From Haloarcula mannanilytica (GTDB lineage Archaea; Halobacteriota; Halobacteria; Halobacteriales; Haloarculaceae), in the NCBI RefSeq assembly GCF_005406125.1, contig NZ_BIXZ01000010.1:1-64000 (forward strand): a stretch of DNA of 64,000 nucleotides. The letters are read 5' to 3'. The notes beneath the pieces are model-generated. The model saw only the letters and a program-made list of their open reading frames with translations. It was not told the DNA's origin and made no database searches. Shown here piece after piece: positions 26,835 to 41,749 of this stretch; the stretch's first letter is position 1, and each line of letters starts with the position of its first letter. The position numbers and the translations under genes were made by a program.

Positions 26835-27270
26835 GGGTTACAAAGGTCATATCGACCGTTTTCGTGATTTTACGGTCTGGATTGGACTGGGGATAGACGA
26901 AGTGGCTCTTTGCCCCTGCAAACACCGTGTTGGTCCAGAGCAAACCGCATGAAGGCACCGTGATAGACGGTTCACGACTAATTGATGAAAGCCCTCGTCC
27001 GCTCGACGTCCCGCGACCACCGCTGCGCGCCTCGTCCCTGCGGTGCTTGCGGGGTCGGGGGACGGCCGAGGCGGCCTCGCCCTTTCTGAGTCCGCCAGGC
27101 CGGTAGATGGTTCACTGAGCGACATAGCCGGCTGAACAGGTGTGTACGTAGCGGCCCGCCCCGCTCGCCGCTGCCGCCCTCCGCGTCGCTCGCGACCGAC
27201 CATTCCGGGCGTGCGGGCGCTCTCCGCACCGCCCGCGCCCGTTCCGGGCTAAAATGAATGTGCCCTCGGC
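26835..27270. other. GC-rich stretch without a gene
   Basis: No reading frame here looks coding: translations are Arg/Pro-rich on both strands. Composition is highly GC-rich and repetitive (many CGC and GCG runs). It precedes the block of hairpins at 27271-27516. Confidence 0.5.
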
Positions 27271-27516
27271 GCCAGCGGGTAAGCGCGAGGGGTTGCGCAG
27301 CGTGGCTGCTCACCCCCCACGCTTACTCCGCTGGCCGCTCGCTCCGGGCGGGTCGGCGCGCGGTGCTGGTTGGGGCCACCTCATGCAGGCGCGCTCTCGC
27401 TCGCGCCCGGTAGGGCGCTCGCGAAGGCGCGAGCGAGAGCGCGCAGATGGTTCTGTCGGTCGTTGTCGTCGGAAAACCGCGATGTAGTAGCATCGCGGAG
27501 TCGGCGCGTGAGCGCC
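27271..27516 (+). other. Cluster of four large stem-loops upstream of the ssDNA-binding protein
   Basis: Four inverted repeats follow one another. Arms 27271-27285 and 27320-27335 match over about 15 bp with one bulge. Arms 27389-27407 and 27426-27444 match perfectly over 19 bp. CCGCGATG (27477-27484) pairs with CATCGCGG (27491-27498) around a 6-base loop. GGCGC (27503-27507) pairs with GCGCC (27512-27516) around a GTGA loop. Nothing here encodes protein. The density of structure could mark a transfer origin, a single-strand initiation site or a structured RNA; the sequence does not say which. Confidence 0.6.
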
Positions 27517-27538
27517 TTCGGAATCTGGTGTGATTCCA

Positions 27539-28405
27539 ATGTCTAGTAACAACGCTAGCGGAAAGGTCGTTTCGGTCGATGAACAGGCATTCGAGAAAGC
27601 GGGCGGTCAGGCCGTCGATGAAGACGGCTTCCCGGTCGTCGACGAGACGCCGGAGTTCGAGGCGACGGTCGAGCAGGAGACGCAGGCGAAGGTGGATGCG
27701 AACCACCCGGACGGAATCGCGGACACGAGCCAGGAACGGATTCACGGTGTCACCCTCGAACAGGAGGAGCGCATTCGGGCGCGGGAAGCGGAACTGGAGC
27801 GCATCAGTGCCCAGGCCGAGCTGGGAACGCAGGACGGTCGCGAGCAGCGCACGCGAGAGGTCGTCAGCGAGCAGTGTGGTCGTGACGAGCCGGCGCCGGC
27901 GGAGCGCACGGACCCCCGGGAGAAGCTGACGCAAGACGAACTCGCGGAGGTCAACGAGCAAGCAATGCGGATCAGCGACGAAGTGCAGGGCGGCTGGTCG
28001 AGAGCGGTCGCCGCGAAGCAACTGGCCGAAAAGGTGCAGCGCGGTCAGGACATCACGAAGGCGGTACTGGAAACCCTCGAAGAACTGAAGGCGGCGCCGG
28101 GGGCGATCGTGCCCATCGCGGACGTGCCGGACGTCCCGGTCGGTGAGGTGACGGTCGAAGGTGAAATCACGCAACTCTGGGATCCAAGTGATACATCCAT
28201 CTCTCAGGTCGGGCTAATCGAGGACGACAGTGGAAAAATCAAGTTCACGATTTGGGAGAAATCCCGGAAAACGGTCGTGAGCGAAGGTGAGACGGTCCGG
28301 TTCCGGGCCGTCAAGAAGAACTGGTACCAGGGACGGTGCAGCATCGCCATCACGGGCTGGAGCAGAATCGAATTCCCAGAGCGCGGTCGGTGGTGGGAAG
28401 AGTAG
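27539..28405 (+). CDS. RPA-like OB-fold single-stranded DNA-binding protein
   Basis: 288 residues. A long, charged, helical N-terminal region (to about residue 185) precedes an OB-fold: VPVGEVTVEGEITQLWDPSDTSISQ, GLIEDDSGKIKFTIWEKS, VVSEGETVRFRAVKKNWYQGRCSIAI. This matches haloarchaeal RPA-type nucleic-acid-binding modules. It probably coats single-stranded DNA during replication or transfer. The ATG at 27539 is preferred over an upstream codon at 27530 because it fits the acidic N-terminus. It stands alone after the hairpin block. Confidence 0.75.
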   Translation: MSSNNASGKVVSVDEQAFEKAGGQAVDEDGFPVVDETPEFEATVEQETQAKVDANHPDGIADTSQERIHGVTLEQEERIRAREAELERISAQAELGTQDGREQRTREVVSEQCGRDEPAPAERTDPREKLTQDELAEVNEQAMRISDEVQGGWSRAVAAKQLAEKVQRGQDITKAVLETLEELKAAPGAIVPIADVPDVPVGEVTVEGEITQLWDPSDTSISQVGLIEDDSGKIKFTIWEKSRKTVVSEGETVRFRAVKKNWYQGRCSIAITGWSRIEFPERGRWWEE

Positions 28406-28420
28406 GCAAGCGCGGCGCCG

Positions 28421-28429
28421 TTCTTTTTT
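28421..28429 (+). terminator. T-tract terminator after the ssDNA-binding protein gene
   Basis: TTCTTTTTT follows the stop by about 16 bases, immediately after GCGCGGCGCCG. Oligo-T tracts terminate archaeal transcription. The next 150 bases contain no gene. Confidence 0.5.
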
Positions 28430-28586
28430 CGTGTGTGCCGGACCGGCCCTGACCCCGCCGCCCCACCCTCCGCTCCGTGCTCGCTTCGCTGCGCGCGCAG
28501 CCACGACCTTCGTAAACAGCCAATCACGTCATAACCCGTCCATGCTCCGACAGTCAAGGAGATGAATTCGGAGGGATTGTTGTGGT

Positions 28587-28910
28587 TCAGTCCGTGTTTT
28601 GGTACAGCCGGAAGCCGCTGACAGCGCATCCGAGGAAGGCAATTCCTTCCCAAACTAGAATCTCGATTAGGCCAGTGGTGACAGCTCGCCGCACTGAGGT
28701 GATTCCCCAGAGAGCGGTTGTTCGGCGTAGACTTATCGCTCCCACTGTTTTGATGGCTTCTACTGGTGAGACACCGAGGAGTGCTGATCCGGCGAAGGTG
28801 AGTACTACGAGAAGAGCTAATTGCTGGCGGCCGAACTGGAAGAAGTTGCCGACGGCACTACTGAGATAGGTGTTGATGACGTATCGAATTGTCCCGAGGA
28901 CACCCACCAT
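28587..28910 (-). CDS. Small membrane protein downstream of the metalloprotease
   Basis: 107 residues, unrecognised. Two hydrophobic segments (LALLVVLTFAGSALLGV and ILVWEGIAFLGCAVSGF) flank a basic stretch (SLRRTTALWGITSVRR). It lies 57 bases downstream of the protease gene on the same strand and probably belongs to the same transcript. The whole block to 32011 is AT-richer than the rest of the window, suggesting joint acquisition. Confidence 0.5.
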   Translation of the reverse strand: MVGVLGTIRYVINTYLSSAVGNFFQFGRQQLALLVVLTFAGSALLGVSPVEAIKTVGAISLRRTTALWGITSVRRAVTTGLIEILVWEGIAFLGCAVSGFRLYQNTD

Positions 28911-28967
28911 TTCTTACTTGTCCCATTTCAGACTGAATCGCATAAATTTTCTCACGGATGCAGGGTT

Positions 28968-29624
28968 CTATTGGCCGCCGATCCCTCGCTTACGTGCGAT
29001 CCAGAGAATCAATGATTCGGGCGGGTACTGGATTCGGAGGCGGATCTTGTGAAGGAGTCCAGCATCGGATTCTTCCTTGACCTCGTCAAGTACGGATCGA
29101 TACTGTGATCGTCCGATCTTGGAGATCGCAAAGAGTTCGGCCATTGTCTCATCGATCCAGCAAACAGCTACGAACGGAAGTATGGCGGCGATAGTGATCC
29201 CGATCCCTATAATCAGGTAGGCAGGTAGCATCACCGTAGAGGGTGCGAACTGGAAAGCTGCAACGAGTGTGCGTGGTAAGGCCATTATCCCGGCGAGGAA
29301 GAGCAGGCCGAATGTTAGGTAGAATGCCCAGAATAGGGCCCTCCCGATGAATCCCATCTGGTCGTGGCCAACCTCATGCAGAAAGACGTAGTCGACGACA
29401 TCTACTGAGAAGTCCTCCTTGGCTTGTTCGTTCATCAAGAAGGTGCCGAGCGGAGAGTAGTCTCCCATCCGTTTGCTCTCGTCGTGGAACCAGTACACGG
29501 TCCGTGAGATCCCGCTGGCAGAGTATTCCCCGGTTTCGGTGACTCCTCCCCGGTTCTTTGCGTAGAGTCGAGTCAGCCCGGACTGTATTTTCCCGAACAC
29601 GACCACGTAGCACCGTCTTGGCAA
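28968..29624 (-). CDS. M48-like membrane zinc metalloprotease
   Basis: 218 residues. The zinc motif HEVGH (residues 83-87) is preceded by a strand (VVDYVFL) and followed by membrane segments (ALFWAFYLTFGLLFLAGIMAL and MLPAYLIIGIGITIAAILPFVAV). After them, WIDETMAELF (residues 157-164) supplies the downstream Glu ligand of the M48/HtpX type. The active site would face the cytoplasm. TTG at 29624 is used; a TATA-like TTTAAATA about 22 bases upstream makes it nearly leaderless. The GTG at 29606 is an alternative. Neighbouring HEPN and nuclease genes suggest a defence island. Confidence 0.65.
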   Translation of the reverse strand: MPRRCYVVVFGKIQSGLTRLYAKNRGGVTETGEYSASGISRTVYWFHDESKRMGDYSPLGTFLMNEQAKEDFSVDVVDYVFLHEVGHDQMGFIGRALFWAFYLTFGLLFLAGIMALPRTLVAAFQFAPSTVMLPAYLIIGIGITIAAILPFVAVCWIDETMAELFAISKIGRSQYRSVLDEVKEESDAGLLHKIRLRIQYPPESLILWIARKRGIGGQ

Positions 29625-29690
29625 ATGTATATGAGAAGCTGGTATTTAAACGAACTGACGGTGATGGTCACCGGATTCCTGAGCCTTTGG

Positions 29691-31457
29691 TTACGTGAGC
29701 GGACCGCCGTTGACGTAGAGATATTTGGATGGATGGCCGAATTTCGCTACGAAAGGGGTGGGTCTGAGCTGGTAGCCGATCCGGAGGATGTCTACTATTG
29801 GCATGACGGCGTTGATGTGGTGGTCCTGTCCTATCCGCAGGTGACCGTGCGCTGTCCGGTTTCTCATGTTGCCGTCGGCGGTTTCTCCGGTTTTCTCGTT
29901 GTACGCGTACTCGATGTATTCCTGAAATTCCTCTCCTGCGTGGGTGTCGATCTGGGATATGAGTGGTGTGAGTGTTCTTGTACCGGTACCGCCGTCCATT
30001 TGCCGGACTACGTCGTCTCCGAGATCGTTCAGTAGTTCGTAGAGGGTTGATTCAAGTCGGGGGATGCTGATGTGGATGGAGGCTGCGTATTCTTTGTCAA
30101 AAAGGTGGTTGACGGCATCCGTAAGGTACCAGATGGTGTGGTTGGAAAGCCCCGAGATCATGTTCAGTAGACGGAAGAAGTCCCGTTCCCGAAGCCATCC
30201 TTCTTCGATCAGTCTGATCACCGCTCCGGAGATCACTACATGGGATTGGAGTAGGTCTTGAGCGTAGTCCTGAGTGATGTCGTCGTCAGGACCGACCTGA
30301 GTGAGGTGGCCTGACAGCTGCGGGTGAAGGTTGTCTACGTGATCGATGAGCGAGAAGTCCTCCGGGTCCTGTTCTCCGAACGGTGGGAGCAGCTCGAACT
30401 CGTTTACAAGCCAGTAGAGTGCCTTCGTAGGGTTGTCGTAGACTGCGATATTTTTGAAAATGTCCTGAAGAGTTTCTGACTGTGCTTTCAGCGTTCCTGG
30501 GGCTGCTTTCTGGATTTTCTGCCCGGAGTTCTTCAGCTCTCGTCCGCCTTCCCGGATCGAGTCCTGCATCTCGTTCTTCCACTCCACCTTCTCATCGTCG
30601 TCCAGCGTTTCGGATACGATCGGGTCACGAAGAGCCTCGTCGATTATATTACCTTTCAGTAAGGCGTCTCGCTCGCCTTGTGTTTCGACGTATCGCCAGT
30701 ATTCTTCCGTGTATCTCCGTTTAAGATCGGCGTCGTGGATATCGAGTGCTCTTCCGATCTCGATGGCTTTTCCCAGGAAATCGCGGCAGGCGTTCTGGTC
30801 GGTGACGTTCTCCCCCAGTTCGTCGTCTTCCTGTCTATACCGGTTCGCACGGACGATGCAAATCACAAAGAGCCGTTGGAGTAGACCTCGGTCGAAGGAT
30901 TTGTCAGGGCCCGTGTGTTCGAGTACGAGGTCTATCGTTTCCTCGAATCCTGTTCTCGTGCCTTTCTCCTCTTCGTAGTATCTGTCGTCCAAGAAGTCGA
31001 CGGCGGTGGAGAGTTCAGACGAGTTGTCGTGAGATAGTTTGGCTTGGAGGGCGACCAGTTCCTGAAGAGATCTGACGATGATCGAATCGTGCTCCTCCCT
31101 TAGTCCCTGCTGAAGAGATTTGCTGAGGAGATGTTTCGCGGCTCGTGCGTGGTCGTATGATCCATTGTTGACCTTCCACTGGCGCAGGGCTTCGATTGCT
31201 GCTATCAGAGGGTGGAGATGGGATATCGGCCCTAAGTTTTCTGGGATCTTCTCGTTCGCTGTCTCTGGGTTGTCGTCGATGAACCGGATAAAGATCTCTA
31301 AGTCGGAGGTGAAGCTAAAGGCTTCTCTGGGTTCTTCTTCAGCCTTCTCCCAATGTTCCTGTATAGTCTCTGTAGAAGGCACGTAGACGTACATCAGCGC
31401 TTGATTTTCATTATATCTTCCGTAGGTGTTTACTGATCTGGATTGTCTTCTGTCCAC
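29691..31457 (-). CDS. DUF4209-type protein with RNxxxHG motif (HEPN-like RNase candidate)
   Basis: 588 residues. A long all-helical N-terminal region is followed by a C-terminal domain carrying RNRTAHG (Arg 532 to Gly 538). This matches the invariant RNxxxHG signature of DUF4209. The R-N-x-x-x-H pattern is also the catalytic motif of HEPN ribonucleases, so RNA cleavage during an abortive response is plausible; that is inference. The upstream nuclease-like gene and the downstream protease lie on the same strand. A second possible start is the Met at residue 22 (MYVYVPSTETI). Confidence 0.65.
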   Translation of the reverse strand: MDRRQSRSVNTYGRYNENQALMYVYVPSTETIQEHWEKAEEEPREAFSFTSDLEIFIRFIDDNPETANEKIPENLGPISHLHPLIAAIEALRQWKVNNGSYDHARAAKHLLSKSLQQGLREEHDSIIVRSLQELVALQAKLSHDNSSELSTAVDFLDDRYYEEEKGTRTGFEETIDLVLEHTGPDKSFDRGLLQRLFVICIVRANRYRQEDDELGENVTDQNACRDFLGKAIEIGRALDIHDADLKRRYTEEYWRYVETQGERDALLKGNIIDEALRDPIVSETLDDDEKVEWKNEMQDSIREGGRELKNSGQKIQKAAPGTLKAQSETLQDIFKNIAVYDNPTKALYWLVNEFELLPPFGEQDPEDFSLIDHVDNLHPQLSGHLTQVGPDDDITQDYAQDLLQSHVVISGAVIRLIEEGWLRERDFFRLLNMISGLSNHTIWYLTDAVNHLFDKEYAASIHISIPRLESTLYELLNDLGDDVVRQMDGGTGTRTLTPLISQIDTHAGEEFQEYIEYAYNEKTGETADGNMRNRTAHGHLRIGQDHHINAVMPIVDILRIGYQLRPTPFVAKFGHPSKYLYVNGGPLT

Positions 31458-31561
31458 ATATATCCGATATGCTGCTTAGTTCTTAGGCTATTGTCGTAAA
31501 ACGTGGGAATATGGTATGGGCAAGAATCCAGCTGATGAAAGTGGGCGTCTTGAGACCGCTG

Positions 31562-32011
31562 TTACAACTCTTCATAGTATACTTCCCCGGATTCTCTGAT
31601 CTGCTCCACTTCGTCGTCCTCGATTGAACTCTGTGGGATATAGCTCCACACTTCGACATCGTCCATCAGGCCACCGTAGTGGTCGACGTAGTATTCGGCG
31701 AAACTTTTGCCGTCGCTGTCTCTGAAGTCGTCTTGTATCACGATCATTTTCCGTTCTGCTTCAACGCGGCTCAGAAATAGCAGAGTCTCGTTCAGAGTGG
31801 ATATCTTGGCAGGAGGAATATCTTCGCCATTAACCCAAGTGTAGCTCTTGCATTCGATGACGATCTCTCCATCTTTCGAGACCGAATCGAACTTATGGAC
31901 TTGTTCTTGACCGACTCGCCATTCCTTTTCCCGGAAGAAACTCCGTCCGAAATACTGCTCAAAGTAGCGATTTACCCGGTCTTCGAATGCTCTCCAGTCG
32001 ACCCGCTCCAT
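31562..32011 (-). CDS. PD-(D/E)xK nuclease-like protein
   Basis: 149 residues. The motif FDSVSKDGEIVIECKSYTW has the nuclease core spacing (Asp 42, Glu 53, Lys 55), preceded by a helix beginning FEDRVNRYFEQYF, as in Mrr/REase-like folds. The C-terminal half has a strand RKMIVIQDD and an acidic tail. It is the first gene of the minus-strand AT-rich block shared with the HEPN and protease genes. No methyltransferase is nearby. Confidence 0.6.
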   Translation of the reverse strand: MERVDWRAFEDRVNRYFEQYFGRSFFREKEWRVGQEQVHKFDSVSKDGEIVIECKSYTWVNGEDIPPAKISTLNETLLFLSRVEAERKMIVIQDDFRDSDGKSFAEYYVDHYGGLMDDVEVWSYIPQSSIEDDEVEQIRESGEVYYEEL

Positions 32012-32149
32012 AGAGCTATCTCAAATATCCTGGAACAATAAAATGGCACATATTTTGAGTAGTAGACTGCTTGCTATATACGGTGTCTCGTGTTGAGCGA
32101 GGTCTTCTGCGCCCGGAATAGGCACTTCAGTCCCGCGTAGAGTCTATTT

Positions 32150-32170
32150 ACCCCTGAATGGGTGAGGGGC
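32150..32170 (+). promoter_or_regulatory. Stem-loop leader element, copy 2 (before tfb)
   Basis: CCCC (32151-32154) and GGGG (32166-32169) enclose the 11-base loop TGAATGGGTGA. It lies 39 bases before the ATG at 32209 and argues against the upstream ATG at 32158, which falls inside the element. Confidence 0.6.
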
Positions 32171-32208
32171 GCGCCGAACTGGCGGGTTCCCGAAACACGG
32201 TGAGACCG

Positions 32209-33135
32209 ATGGCAACCAGAGACATCTACGAGAGCGGATTCGACGAGGACGTCCGAACGGAATCAAGTGCGAACCAATGCCCCGAGTGCGACGGCCGAGT
32301 CACCACGAACGCGGTCGAAACGGTCTGCGAGGACTGTGGCCTGGTCATCGACGAACAGCGCATCGATCACGGGCCGGAGTGGCGGGCGTACGACGACAAG
32401 GAGCGCGAGCGAACGGGTGCTCCACTCACTGCGGCCCGCCACGATCACGGCCTGTCGACGGAAATCGGTCGGGGTACCGACGCGAACGGGAACGAGATCT
32501 CCGGGCAGAAGCGACGGCGACTCGCTCGGATGCGCCGTGAGCAGACACGTGGTCGCTGGCGGTCGAAAGCGGAACGGAATCTCGCCCACGGGCTGGGCGA
32601 AGTGCGTCGGTTAGCGAGTGCCCTCGAACTCTCCGATTCGGTCCGCGACCAGGCGTGTCAGCTCTTCCGGAGCGCCCAGAACGAAGATCTGCTTCGAGGC
32701 AGATCCATCGAGGCCATCGCCGCGGCCAGCGTCTACGGAGCCTGCCGGTGCAACGGTCTCTCGCGGTTATTGGACGACGTCAGCGAGATGGCCCGCGTTG
32801 CGGAGTCACGGGTCACGAACGCGTACAAAACGCTGAACGAAGAGCTGGGCCTTCCCGCCGAGCCCGTCTCCCCCAGCATGTTCGTGCCGCGCCTCGCCTC
32901 GGACCTCGAGTGTCCGGACAGGATCCGACAGCGGGCCCGAACGCTCGCGGAGCAGGCCGAGGAGCGCGGCGTCACGACGGGCGTCCACCCGGCCGGATTC
33001 GCCGCGGCCTGCCTCTACAAGGCCGGTCACGAGGAGGGCCGATGGCTGACGCAATCCGAGGCCGCGGACGTGGCGAACGCCTCGAAGGCGACTGTCCGGG
33101 CACACCGGGATACGTTGGAGAAACAGGTCGCCTGA
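32209..33135 (+). CDS. tfb: Transcription initiation factor B (TFB)
   Basis: 308 residues. The N-terminal zinc ribbon has CPEC (Cys 24, 27) and CEDC (Cys 40, 43). The B-finger region reads EWRAYDDKERERTGAP. Two cyclin repeats follow, starting about 125 (RLASALELSDSVRDQACQLF) and about 225 (RLASDLECPDRIRQRARTL), the second ending in a helix-turn-helix (TQSEAADVANASKATVRAHRD). TFB recruits RNA polymerase to TATA-TBP complexes. Haloarchaea use several TFBs, and this copy may adjust promoter choice on the element. The start was set by the leader element and the GGTGAG site 5 bases before the ATG. Confidence 0.9.
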   Translation: MATRDIYESGFDEDVRTESSANQCPECDGRVTTNAVETVCEDCGLVIDEQRIDHGPEWRAYDDKERERTGAPLTAARHDHGLSTEIGRGTDANGNEISGQKRRRLARMRREQTRGRWRSKAERNLAHGLGEVRRLASALELSDSVRDQACQLFRSAQNEDLLRGRSIEAIAAASVYGACRCNGLSRLLDDVSEMARVAESRVTNAYKTLNEELGLPAEPVSPSMFVPRLASDLECPDRIRQRARTLAEQAEERGVTTGVHPAGFAAACLYKAGHEEGRWLTQSEAADVANASKATVRAHRDTLEKQVA

Positions 33136-35875: not shown

Positions 35876-37495
35876 TCACTGGAGAGTGTTCCTAAGTGCC
35901 CCAAACTCGAGAGGCATAGCAGGCAACTCGCGGCTGGGCTTCCGTTCCTCTTCGAGATTGACGGCGAAGGCAAGGTAGATGAGTGCTGCTCGGGTTTTCC
36001 GCAGCATCGTGACTGCTTTCGTCTCGAATTCGTCTCGTGACATCTTCGTCGCTAATTCATCCGTAAAATGGCCCGCTGGTCGCTCCGTTGTCTCCCACCC
36101 CGTGAGTTTCACATACCGGTGCTCGACACCATTCCGCAGTTCAGTAAGCTCTCGGCCCGCCAAATCCAGCGAGTTCTCTATCCGTAGCGAATCATCTCGC
36201 AGGTCCTTACTCAACCAGTACAGTCCTCGAAGCGGTAGGTTCGCCCGGCCTGAAAATTTCTCTTGCAGAGTACTCCCGTGCCGGTTCTGGAACCAGATGT
36301 CGGTAAATGAGACGTCCTCCGTATCGCGGCCGCATTCGAAATAGTAGTTGATGAACTGCGCGATCTTATCGAACAGAGAGTACGCTGTCCGGAGCGCAAT
36401 CTTCAGCTGCTCACCATACACGGAGTGAACGGGGTAATCCAGCGTATTCGTCAGAGAGACCTCCTTATCTGCGAAGTGCGGGCCGTCAGGGTGACTCCCC
36501 TGGTACAGCAAATACCGGGCAGTCACGTACTCCTCGACCAAGTGATTCCATAATCCAAGACAGGTCACAATTCGTTCCGTCCGAGCGTCCAGTAGCTGGC
36601 CAAGATGGAGTGTATCTTGAGCAGCAATCGGCTCGTCCGTTACATCGTTCAGCGTGTTCAGAAAGAGACGATGCCGGAGACCCCACCGTCGATACGCTCG
36701 CTCCTCGTCGCTGTCCCCGAGGTCACTCTCCTCGAAGTCAAGAATCTCATCAGATGGGGGTGAAGACTTGAACTCGGCTGTGATTCGGGTTTGATACCGG
36801 TCGAACTGCTGGAGCGTTTTCTCGGGCGAGAGGCCTACGAGGCGGTCCATCTTTGCCTTCTCTATTTCATCGTACGCTTTCTTCAGCAGAACCGCACGAT
36901 GCCCCTCGTCGTAGTCATGCCTCCCGTACGTGTAGAAGCCGATGCCGCGTTGACCCCGGGCAGGGAAGAAGTACGGTTGGCGGATTAACGCCTCATTCCA
37001 GAAGTCGAACGCCTCGACGAACCGCCCGATGGTCGAATACAGATTCCCTAGGTTCGTGAACGACCGCCATTGTTCTAGTGGCGAGAGTTCGTCTACGGTA
37101 TCTTCCTGAATTGCGAGGCGATAGTGCCGGATAGCGTGTTCCCGGTCGGTGTTCTCCCAGAGCCATTCGTCGCCCCGGTCGGCCTCCAAGGACATCCGGT
37201 TCGAATATGCTGTGCCGAGCCGGTAGTTCAACATTCCGCGGAGCTCGGCATCAAGCGAGGACGGGTCCAGGTCTTTGGCGAGGTCAATCCCTGCGGAGAT
37301 CGCGATTCGACTGTCGATGTCGGCGCCGTGGTCAACGAGCCAGCCGATAACCCTAAGTTGATTGCGAGAAGAGAGATTCTCGACTGACTCGACCATTTTC
37401 AGGCGGTCGATGACCTCCTCCCGATATTCGGGAAGCAGATCCTGGAGTGACCGGACCTCTAAAGCTGTCAGACGAGACGTTTGCTCTGCTTCCAC
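35876..37495 (-). CDS. LA2681-type HEPN protein with N-terminal TPR-like repeats
   Basis: 539 residues. The first half is helical and TPR-like (EQWRSFTNLGNLYSTIGRFVEAFDFWNEALI). The C-terminal half has signatures I associate with LA2681-family HEPN proteins: ARYLLYQGS, FADKEVSLTNTLDYP, KIALRTAYSLFDKIAQFINYYF and LRGLYWLSKDL. It then has ELRNGVEHRYVKL, where Arg 454 to His 459 is the HEPN RNxxxH motif. HEPN proteins are commonly ribonucleases in defence. The gene is on the opposite strand to its neighbours, is AT-richer, and sits between directly repeated leader sequences, so it looks like inserted cargo. Confidence 0.75.
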   Translation of the reverse strand: MEAEQTSRLTALEVRSLQDLLPEYREEVIDRLKMVESVENLSSRNQLRVIGWLVDHGADIDSRIAISAGIDLAKDLDPSSLDAELRGMLNYRLGTAYSNRMSLEADRGDEWLWENTDREHAIRHYRLAIQEDTVDELSPLEQWRSFTNLGNLYSTIGRFVEAFDFWNEALIRQPYFFPARGQRGIGFYTYGRHDYDEGHRAVLLKKAYDEIEKAKMDRLVGLSPEKTLQQFDRYQTRITAEFKSSPPSDEILDFEESDLGDSDEERAYRRWGLRHRLFLNTLNDVTDEPIAAQDTLHLGQLLDARTERIVTCLGLWNHLVEEYVTARYLLYQGSHPDGPHFADKEVSLTNTLDYPVHSVYGEQLKIALRTAYSLFDKIAQFINYYFECGRDTEDVSFTDIWFQNRHGSTLQEKFSGRANLPLRGLYWLSKDLRDDSLRIENSLDLAGRELTELRNGVEHRYVKLTGWETTERPAGHFTDELATKMSRDEFETKAVTMLRKTRAALIYLAFAVNLEEERKPSRELPAMPLEFGALRNTLQ

Positions 37496-40313: not shown

Positions 40314-41678
40314 TCAGATTACGCCTCCGAGTGCGAGCATGCCAAGCAGTAGTACAACTGCAGTAACTACCCCACCAGCCGTGAGGACCTTGTTCTCCAT
40401 CGCCTTCTCGTGGATGGGCATGGCGGCGTACTCCTCGCGGAACGCCTCGAGGTTCTCCTCGTCGTAGAAGTACTTCGTCTTCAGCGCGAACCGCTCGGTC
40501 ACCGCACAGCCCGTACAGACCGGCTCGCCTTCCAGCCGCTCCGTTTTGATGTGACTGGAGCAGGCGATAGCCCCGCAGTTCGGACAGTAGGTGTACTTCT
40601 CGTCGCCGCCGCTCGTGTCACAATGGACGCAGCGGTGGATGCCATCCTCAGCTGTCACTCGTGACGGACCTGCCGCGTAGTACTCGTAGGGGTAGGTGTA
40701 CTCCTGGAGGCCGGTCGTGTGCCGAACCTCGGGGAGGTATACGGGCTCGATCGACTGCACGGAGATGTCCGAGCGGTTCGGCTCGCAGGTCTTGTTGTAG
40801 GTTACGTTGTTGTCGCCGGTGTAGGTGACCGTCGTCGTGTGGTGCTGCTGGAGTCGCTCGACGGCCCACTCCTTATACTCCGTTTGGGTCTGCCCGAACC
40901 GGCGCTCCTCAACGTCGTCGAACACCTCTCCGAACTGCTCGGCGTCGACGTCGACCGTCGCGTGAAGGTTCTCGGTGACCAGCGTTGCGACGTCCTCGTC
41001 CGCGACCTGTGGCTGCCCGCGTTCGGCGTGGGCGACGAATCGCGATCGGTCGTTGATCCGGTGGATGACGCCCACCGACGTCTCGAAAACGGCGTTCGTG
41101 TCCGCGGTGACCGCGACCACCGGCCGGAACGTCACCGATGAGTGTGGGTCTGGGAGGTCGGCGGCCTCGATGTTCTCGACGTCGCGGAACGCCTCTTCGA
41201 CGGGTGTGTCGACGTCGGCAGCCGGGTCGTAGGGACGTAGCGTTTCGTCGCAGAGAATCTCGATGCGACCGTTGTAGAGGTCGAGGCCGATCTCGTCGGC
41301 GATCTCCCGGAGGTCCTCGCCGTCGAGCAGCTCGATTGGATGGGGATCGTCATTCTGCTGGAGGCGGTCGGCGTACTCCTGGGCGGGATTCGTGAACCGG
41401 CCGGTCGTGACGACCATCCCGCGTTTGGGGCCGTCGAAGTCGAACGTCGCGATCGCCGAGTGGAGCTTCTGGACGACCGGCCGTCCGACCGTCCCCGTAT
41501 GCTTGCACTCGACGATGATCGCGCGCCGCGTGCCGTCGACGACCTCCTCCATGATGACGTCGCGACCCTCGTCAGCCGTGCGGTCGGCCTGGCGGACGTT
41601 CTCGTAGCCGAGGTTCCGGAACACGTCCTCCATCACGTCCTCGAACTCGAACCCCGAGAGATCGTCCAGTACAGCCAT
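40314..41678 (-). CDS. Mrr-like nuclease with zinc ribbon and C-terminal membrane anchor
   Basis: 454 residues. An N-terminal Mrr_cat-type domain begins LSGFEFEDVMEDVFRNLGYE, with catalytic Asp 40 (EGRDV), Glu 57 and Lys 59 (IVECKH) and then VVQKLHSAIATFD. A middle domain is unassigned. A double zinc ribbon follows (CVHC, CPNCGAIACSSH, CTGCA). The last 25 residues are a membrane helix (VLTAGGVVTAVVLLLGMLAL). Mrr-type enzymes cut modified or foreign DNA; a membrane-tethered version could act on incoming DNA. ATG 41678 is used over a TTG two codons earlier. Confidence 0.75.
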   Translation of the reverse strand: MAVLDDLSGFEFEDVMEDVFRNLGYENVRQADRTADEGRDVIMEEVVDGTRRAIIVECKHTGTVGRPVVQKLHSAIATFDFDGPKRGMVVTTGRFTNPAQEYADRLQQNDDPHPIELLDGEDLREIADEIGLDLYNGRIEILCDETLRPYDPAADVDTPVEEAFRDVENIEAADLPDPHSSVTFRPVVAVTADTNAVFETSVGVIHRINDRSRFVAHAERGQPQVADEDVATLVTENLHATVDVDAEQFGEVFDDVEERRFGQTQTEYKEWAVERLQQHHTTTVTYTGDNNVTYNKTCEPNRSDISVQSIEPVYLPEVRHTTGLQEYTYPYEYYAAGPSRVTAEDGIHRCVHCDTSGGDEKYTYCPNCGAIACSSHIKTERLEGEPVCTGCAVTERFALKTKYFYDEENLEAFREEYAAMPIHEKAMENKVLTAGGVVTAVVLLLGMLALGGVI

Positions 41679-41749
41679 CCTCAATTATATGGACAGTACG
41701 TTGCAACTGCCAAATACGTTGCCGAACGCTGCGCCGTCCTGTTTGTTGA

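Follow-up and report, generated by a model that had tools for sequence, protein, structure and literature searches.

The four genes D, C, B and A, which are flanked by an OB-fold gene on the left and a TFB gene on the right in the 64,000-nucleotide stretch of Haloarcula mannanilytica DNA analysed here (the window), are probably hotspot cargo of a haloarchaeal plasmid, put together from no fewer than three modules that are independent of one another (D-C, B and A), with B most likely functioning on its own. The slot itself serves as a cargo hotspot in a family of haloarchaeal plasmids that is widespread. Judged from its motif, family and location, one of the cargo genes, B, probably encodes an RNA-cutting virus-defence protein, and what speaks for a defence role of the D-C-B-A cargo as a whole is its location.

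Results

Layout and plasmid setting of the island

The window belongs to a contig of 106 kb in a haloarchaeal genome of 4.2 Mb, and its plasmid backbone is common to 173 PLSDB records, haloarchaeal by name wherever names are listed; those backbone records that were opened are typed MPF_T. A sequence-only reading of this DNA had described four consecutive AT-rich genes on the minus strand (28587-32011), and this description was borne out. Four open reading frames, all on the minus strand, were found at exactly these coordinates (Table 1), and the GC content of the cargo (28510-32130) amounted to 51.9%, as compared to 62.7% for the OB-fold gene, 66.8% for the TFB gene and 59.3% for the whole window. 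However, low GC is nothing peculiar to the D-C-B-A island because in 47 of the 48 filled slots the cargo has a lower GC content than the adjoining OB-fold gene. Likewise, the common strand is no proof of an operon, since a TATA-like box (judged by eye) lies about 25-35 nt upstream of C, of D and of A. Pfam OB-fold matches of the OB-fold gene are below cut-off, and PLSDB records name this gene as well. In public records, the start of the TFB gene is placed at about window position 32209.

Table 1. Coordinates of the island genes, the slot flanks and the junctions in the window.
Feature	Coordinates	Strand	Description
OB-fold gene	27530..28405	+	Left slot flank; 'DNA-binding protein / replication factor A'; plasmid backbone
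Element X	28424..28509	+	Conserved noncoding element of about 85 bp directly after the OB-fold gene; ends at the cargo junction (...CGCTGCGCGCGCAGCCACGACC)
D	28587..28910	-	107-aa membrane protein, 2 predicted TM segments
C	28968..29624	-	218-aa membrane M48-like metalloprotease; HEVGH, downstream E159
B	29691..31457	-	588-aa DUF4209-type HEPN protein; RNRTAHG at residue 532
A	31562..32011	-	149-aa PD-(D/E)xK/Mrr-like protein
Right cargo junction	32117..32157	.	Upstream of TFB; less sharp than the left junction
TFB gene	32158..33135	+	Right slot flank; TFIIB-family transcription factor (Pfam TFIIB, E=4e-35; PLSDB annotation)

The OB-TFB slot carries exchangeable cargo

The two flanking proteins, OB-fold and TFB, served to define the slot at 52 loci, which represent 51 distinct plasmids, one of them occurring twice; L185 is one more. 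Slot size at the 52 loci ranges from 161 bp to about 14 kb. Empty versions of about 170 bp occur at L159, L167, L175 and L184, and the filled slots hold 224 predicted cargo genes that fall into 146 families. PADLOC results were mapped one by one for 30 cargo proteins. They include Avs2 (E=0) in L137, an archaeal Aga-REase together with a short pAgo (1e-170 and 3e-145) in L142 with genes of the same families in L139 and L160, LmuB (6e-34) in L180 and L177 with members of the L180-type family in L133 and L178, a CBASS cyclase (4e-161) in L162, the SIR2 protein PDC-S25 (7e-65) in L135, PDC-M26A (1e-46) in L176, a PifA/QatA-like KAP protein (2e-18) in L153, E1-E2/ThiF (4e-11) in L183, a Dsr1-like AAA protein in L182 and TGT in L140. 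When family members are counted and the slots that bear B are excluded, at least 17 filled slots hold a defence-matching gene. The cargo is not all defence, and what is claimed here is the presence of hallmark systems and not a measured enrichment. The slot has the properties of a hotspot, that is constant flanks, variable cargo, empty versions and many known defence genes.

Another variable position exists on the same plasmid. A second HEPN protein, LA2681-like (Pfam, E=1e-63) and with TPR, is encoded at 35876-37495 on the minus strand of the window, in a slot that is occupied by a DUF3883 protein or a P-type ATPase in sister plasmids. The gene at 40314-41684, also on the minus strand, belongs to cluster 24, which is shared with restriction-endonuclease-like proteins elsewhere, and a 'restriction endonuclease' is encoded at a comparable position in sister plasmids. 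A further DUF4209 protein is encoded by a sister plasmid, Natrinema pJ7-1 (NC_018225.1:25656-27446), where it occupies another slot.

Cargo begins at a conserved noncoding element

In 26 of the 27 compared copies with unrelated cargo, similarity stops at window positions 28508-28510, at the end of element X. X matches 109 PLSDB plasmids and is better conserved than the OB-fold gene in distant plasmids (96.5% for X and 75.8% for the OB-fold gene in L181). Cargo attaches at a fixed point right after X, and in the present case it stacks at the X side, because D-C-B lie between X and an older or separate A-TFB block. No Rfam match was obtained at the slot up to E=1, and a stable hairpin at X was rejected, as folding was no better than for shuffled sequences (z=0.97). 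One copy of X is present at the left end of the slot; no copy was detected between D-C, B and A, and an integron-like cassette array was rejected since there is no recombination site between these modules. A second conserved element, Y (...CCGGGCTTTCGCCAC), replaces X in some empty slots (L159, L167 and L184). Certain filled slots contain X at their left and Y at their right side, and the loci with Y also include L161, L163, L165, L171 and L172.

About 14 slots open, after X, with a homing-endonuclease-like gene of one of two unrelated kinds; in six of these slots, a second copy of X comes after that gene. HNH proteins carrying PF18780, the 'homing endonuclease associated repeat' (lowest E 5e-75), were found in L138, L144, L145, L147, L152, L163, L177, L178 and L182, and LAGLIDADG proteins (E 3e-10) come first after X in L143, L148, L149, L153 and L156. 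The slot of the window has no homing endonuclease gene. As two unrelated endonucleases share one position, breaks at the X junction are suggested to drive gene conversion of the slot. A more elaborate proposal, that X and the free-standing HNH or LAGLIDADG enzymes form a mobility device for immunity, in which empty alleles of sister plasmids would be cut at the X junction, repair would copy the entire slot, and defence genes would hitch-hike between plasmids and stack at X, is put forward tentatively and is rather doubtful.

A is an orphan nuclease-like gene and C-D a putative protease module

The assignment of A to the PD-(D/E)xK nucleases is weak: the residues D42...E53-C-K55 form a D...ExK motif, and the Mrr_cat match is sub-cut-off (E = 0.017; 15.7 bits versus a curated cut-off of 21). 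No relative of A was found in the other 291 haloarchaeal genomes or in the PDB; one plasmid protein has 90.6% identity to it. A appears to be an orphan nuclease-like gene. Comparisons of A, C and D with PADLOC, Pfam and NCBIfam gave nothing confident, IMG/VR yielded no relatives of A, B or C, and neither A nor B was found in phage records.

Relatives of C occur in 24 of 292 haloarchaeal genomes. The HEVGH motif of the proposed M48-like protease C was confirmed, and H83, E84 and H87 of that motif and the downstream glutamate E159, the expected zinc ligand, are invariant in 18 relatives. C itself has no Pfam peptidase match; its relative L096 scores 25.9 bits against M48 (PF01435), for which the cut-off is 20.3. 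Among solved structures, small gluzincins are the nearest, together with a weak resemblance to CAAX protease 1. With M48 gluzincin membrane proteases of the HtpX/Ste24 CAAX type, C and its relatives share the HExxH motif, the downstream glutamate and several TM segments, but C is highly divergent from them. D is found in four of the 292 genomes, next to C every time and nowhere else. From these patterns we infer that C and D form a module of a membrane metalloprotease and a small membrane protein that is separate from B. In L133 and L178, the slot contains Lamassu (LmuB-like) genes as well as relatives of C, and in L178 (G097) C survives merely as a fragment with an internal stop.

B is probably a single-gene HEPN ribonuclease

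Of the 292 genomes analysed from the class, 24 have relatives of B, distributed over 16 of 77 genera of haloarchaea, and their identity to B is about 20-33% except in Haloferax (96%) and Natronomonas (82-83%). The RNRTAHG sequence noticed in B corresponds to the conserved R-x4-6-H catalytic motif of HEPN proteins (RNxxxHG), and 20 of the 21 relatives aligned have a C-terminal R-N-x3-H-G, the exception being a broken open reading frame. This part of the earlier description stands. B itself has no Pfam match; 17 of the 21 relatives match DUF4209 (PF13910) at E ≤ 0.1, and two of five relatives tested exceed the curated cut-off. Nineteen of the 21 relatives match PDC-S39 of PADLOC (best E 5e-23), a single-gene phage-defence candidate that is itself unproven, and B matches it only at E=0.0039 over its C-terminal part. 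DUF4209 has been assigned to the HEPN superfamily as predicted catalytic RNases, with restriction-modification contexts noted (Anantharaman et al., 2013; PMC3710099). B and its relatives resemble this C6orf70/DUF4209 branch in the C-terminal R-N-x3-H-G motif, in occurring as solo or TPR-fused proteins and in their restriction-modification contexts, but B scores under the Pfam threshold and some relatives have extra HTH or helix-hairpin-helix tails. A single-sequence AlphaFold model of B was all-helical and poor (mean pLDDT 39.5), and comparison of a B profile with the PDB gave nothing beyond weak TPR matches in the middle of the profile. A restriction-modification system was rejected for the island, as no methylase lies between the slot borders in the window. 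The TFB gene of both Haloferax plasmids is split by an inserted N6-methylase-like gene of 853 aa (L029:10577-13814 and L030:10996-14233), which is no part of the module.

The genes adjoining relatives of B vary between loci, which argues that B acts as a one-gene unit; the clearest repeated neighbourhood is a cluster of DUF499, DUF1156-methylase and helicase genes. Rhomboid-like membrane proteins adjoin two divergent relatives on the same strand (L031:7458-8285, at a distance of 22 bp, and L044:10931-11845, at 222 bp), and relatives of B possibly have a habit of combining HEPN with membrane proteases. Motif, family and location make a single-gene RNase that acts by abortive infection the most likely identity of B.

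A non-antiviral role, in which B would be an addiction-type toxin or would process RNA, C-D would be a protease for membrane quality control, and all would be kept for plasmid stability, is unlikely. M48 proteases such as HtpX do perform membrane quality control, as this explanation would have it for C-D. HEPN proteins are also known to act as toxins (PMC3710099), but no conserved antitoxin partner was found next to B among the neighbours of its relatives, some of these relatives adjoin defence genes, and the slot is occupied by many known defence genes.

The four genes do not travel together

Among the 292 genomes, B and C are adjacent in three only, namely in the window and in two Haloferax copies that are about 95% identical, and D-C-B occur together in just these three nearly identical copies. 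Both Haloferax copies align to 27001-31432 and 32029-32246 of the window, so that A is skipped. The reverse situation is seen in plasmid 2 of Haloplanus sp. HW8-1, which aligns to 27001-28514 and to 31561-33135 (A-TFB) and lacks D-C-B; here, A is the sole cargo between the same two flanks, the OB-fold gene and TFB. G224 aligns to 28527-29747, that is to D, C and 57 nt of B, and Natronomonas aligns to B only (29704-31460). In Haloplanus GX21, a C with 69% identity occupies the OB-TFB slot, and neither B nor D is there, and in G061 (L049) a relative of B with about 24% identity is found in the OB-TFB slot, which is devoid of C, D and A. D-C-B is a travelling set of recent origin, and across divergent haloarchaeal genomes and plasmids the four components are not kept together.

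These distributions bear on whether B, C and D could form one defence system, in which the membrane protease C, aided by D, would sense or transmit envelope stress and release or activate the HEPN RNase B, with A as a bystander. We consider this quite improbable. The three genes do adjoin on one strand at about 95% identity in three plasmids, the 57 nt of B beside D-C in G224 look like the remainder of a deletion of B, and a loose functional link is possible since three plasmids keep the set and G224 retains the stub. The rhomboid-like proteins beside two relatives could mean that B keeps membrane proteases near, but there are just two such neighbours and the protease types are unrelated. Moreover, 21 other B-bearing genomes and Natronomonas have no adjacent C, 21 other C-bearing genomes have no adjacent B, and C and D each have an upstream TATA-like box of their own. 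The proposal of the sequence-only reading, that all four genes form one new multi-component defence system, draws on the common strand, the low GC and the signatures of nuclease, RNase and protease, but it was rejected as extremely improbable because A, B, C and D-C occur apart in the genomes and plasmids described above, the very outcome that this reading had named as its refutation. The suggested link to defence as such is retained in part, through the location of the island in a slot that also holds Avs2, short Argonaute, Lamassu, CBASS and SIR2 genes and through the PDC-S39 matches of the relatives of B, though not as a single combined system.

Discussion

Exchangeable hotspot cargo made of independent modules is thus the preferred explanation for the island, and the scattered genomic distribution of the genes counts in its favour. 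Comparison of sister plasmids demonstrates that different, often defence-related genes fill the OB-TFB slot. As judged from motif, family and location, the helical, TPR-like N-terminal part of B may sense infection and its C-terminal HEPN domain, with RN-x3-HG, may cut RNA, upon which the infected cell would stop growing. For C and D, action on some substrate at the membrane is proposed, A would be a small nuclease, and the plasmid may gain through protection of its host or exclusion of rivals.

Bacterial mobile elements are known to have defence hotspots (PMC9122126; PMC8649781). The OB-TFB slot resembles those of P2/P4 elements (PMC9122126) and the cargo regions of Tn7-like elements (PMC8649781) in its conserved flanks, its exchangeable defence-rich cargo and its empty versions. 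It differs from them in its archaeal plasmid backbone, in the one sharp junction at a conserved noncoding element and in that homing endonucleases can come first in the cargo. Haloarchaeal plasmid-vesicle plasmids (apHPVs) likewise carry antiviral systems near their core region, but a single OB-TFB slot is not described in the accessible text of that study (PMC10818511). The accessible part of a 2026 survey of archaeal immunity emphasises unproven single-gene candidates and does not describe the slot either (PMC12988326). In the open-access journal articles covered, we found no description of the OB-TFB slot or of homing endonucleases at its border.

Archaeal immunity is sparsely catalogued, and a slot with fixed borders is a ready trap for candidate defence genes. 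Any uncharacterised gene between the OB-fold gene and TFB becomes a defence candidate, which makes location-based discovery testable in archaea, and the homing endonucleases at the junction hint at a concrete and testable route by which immune genes may be swapped among plasmids.
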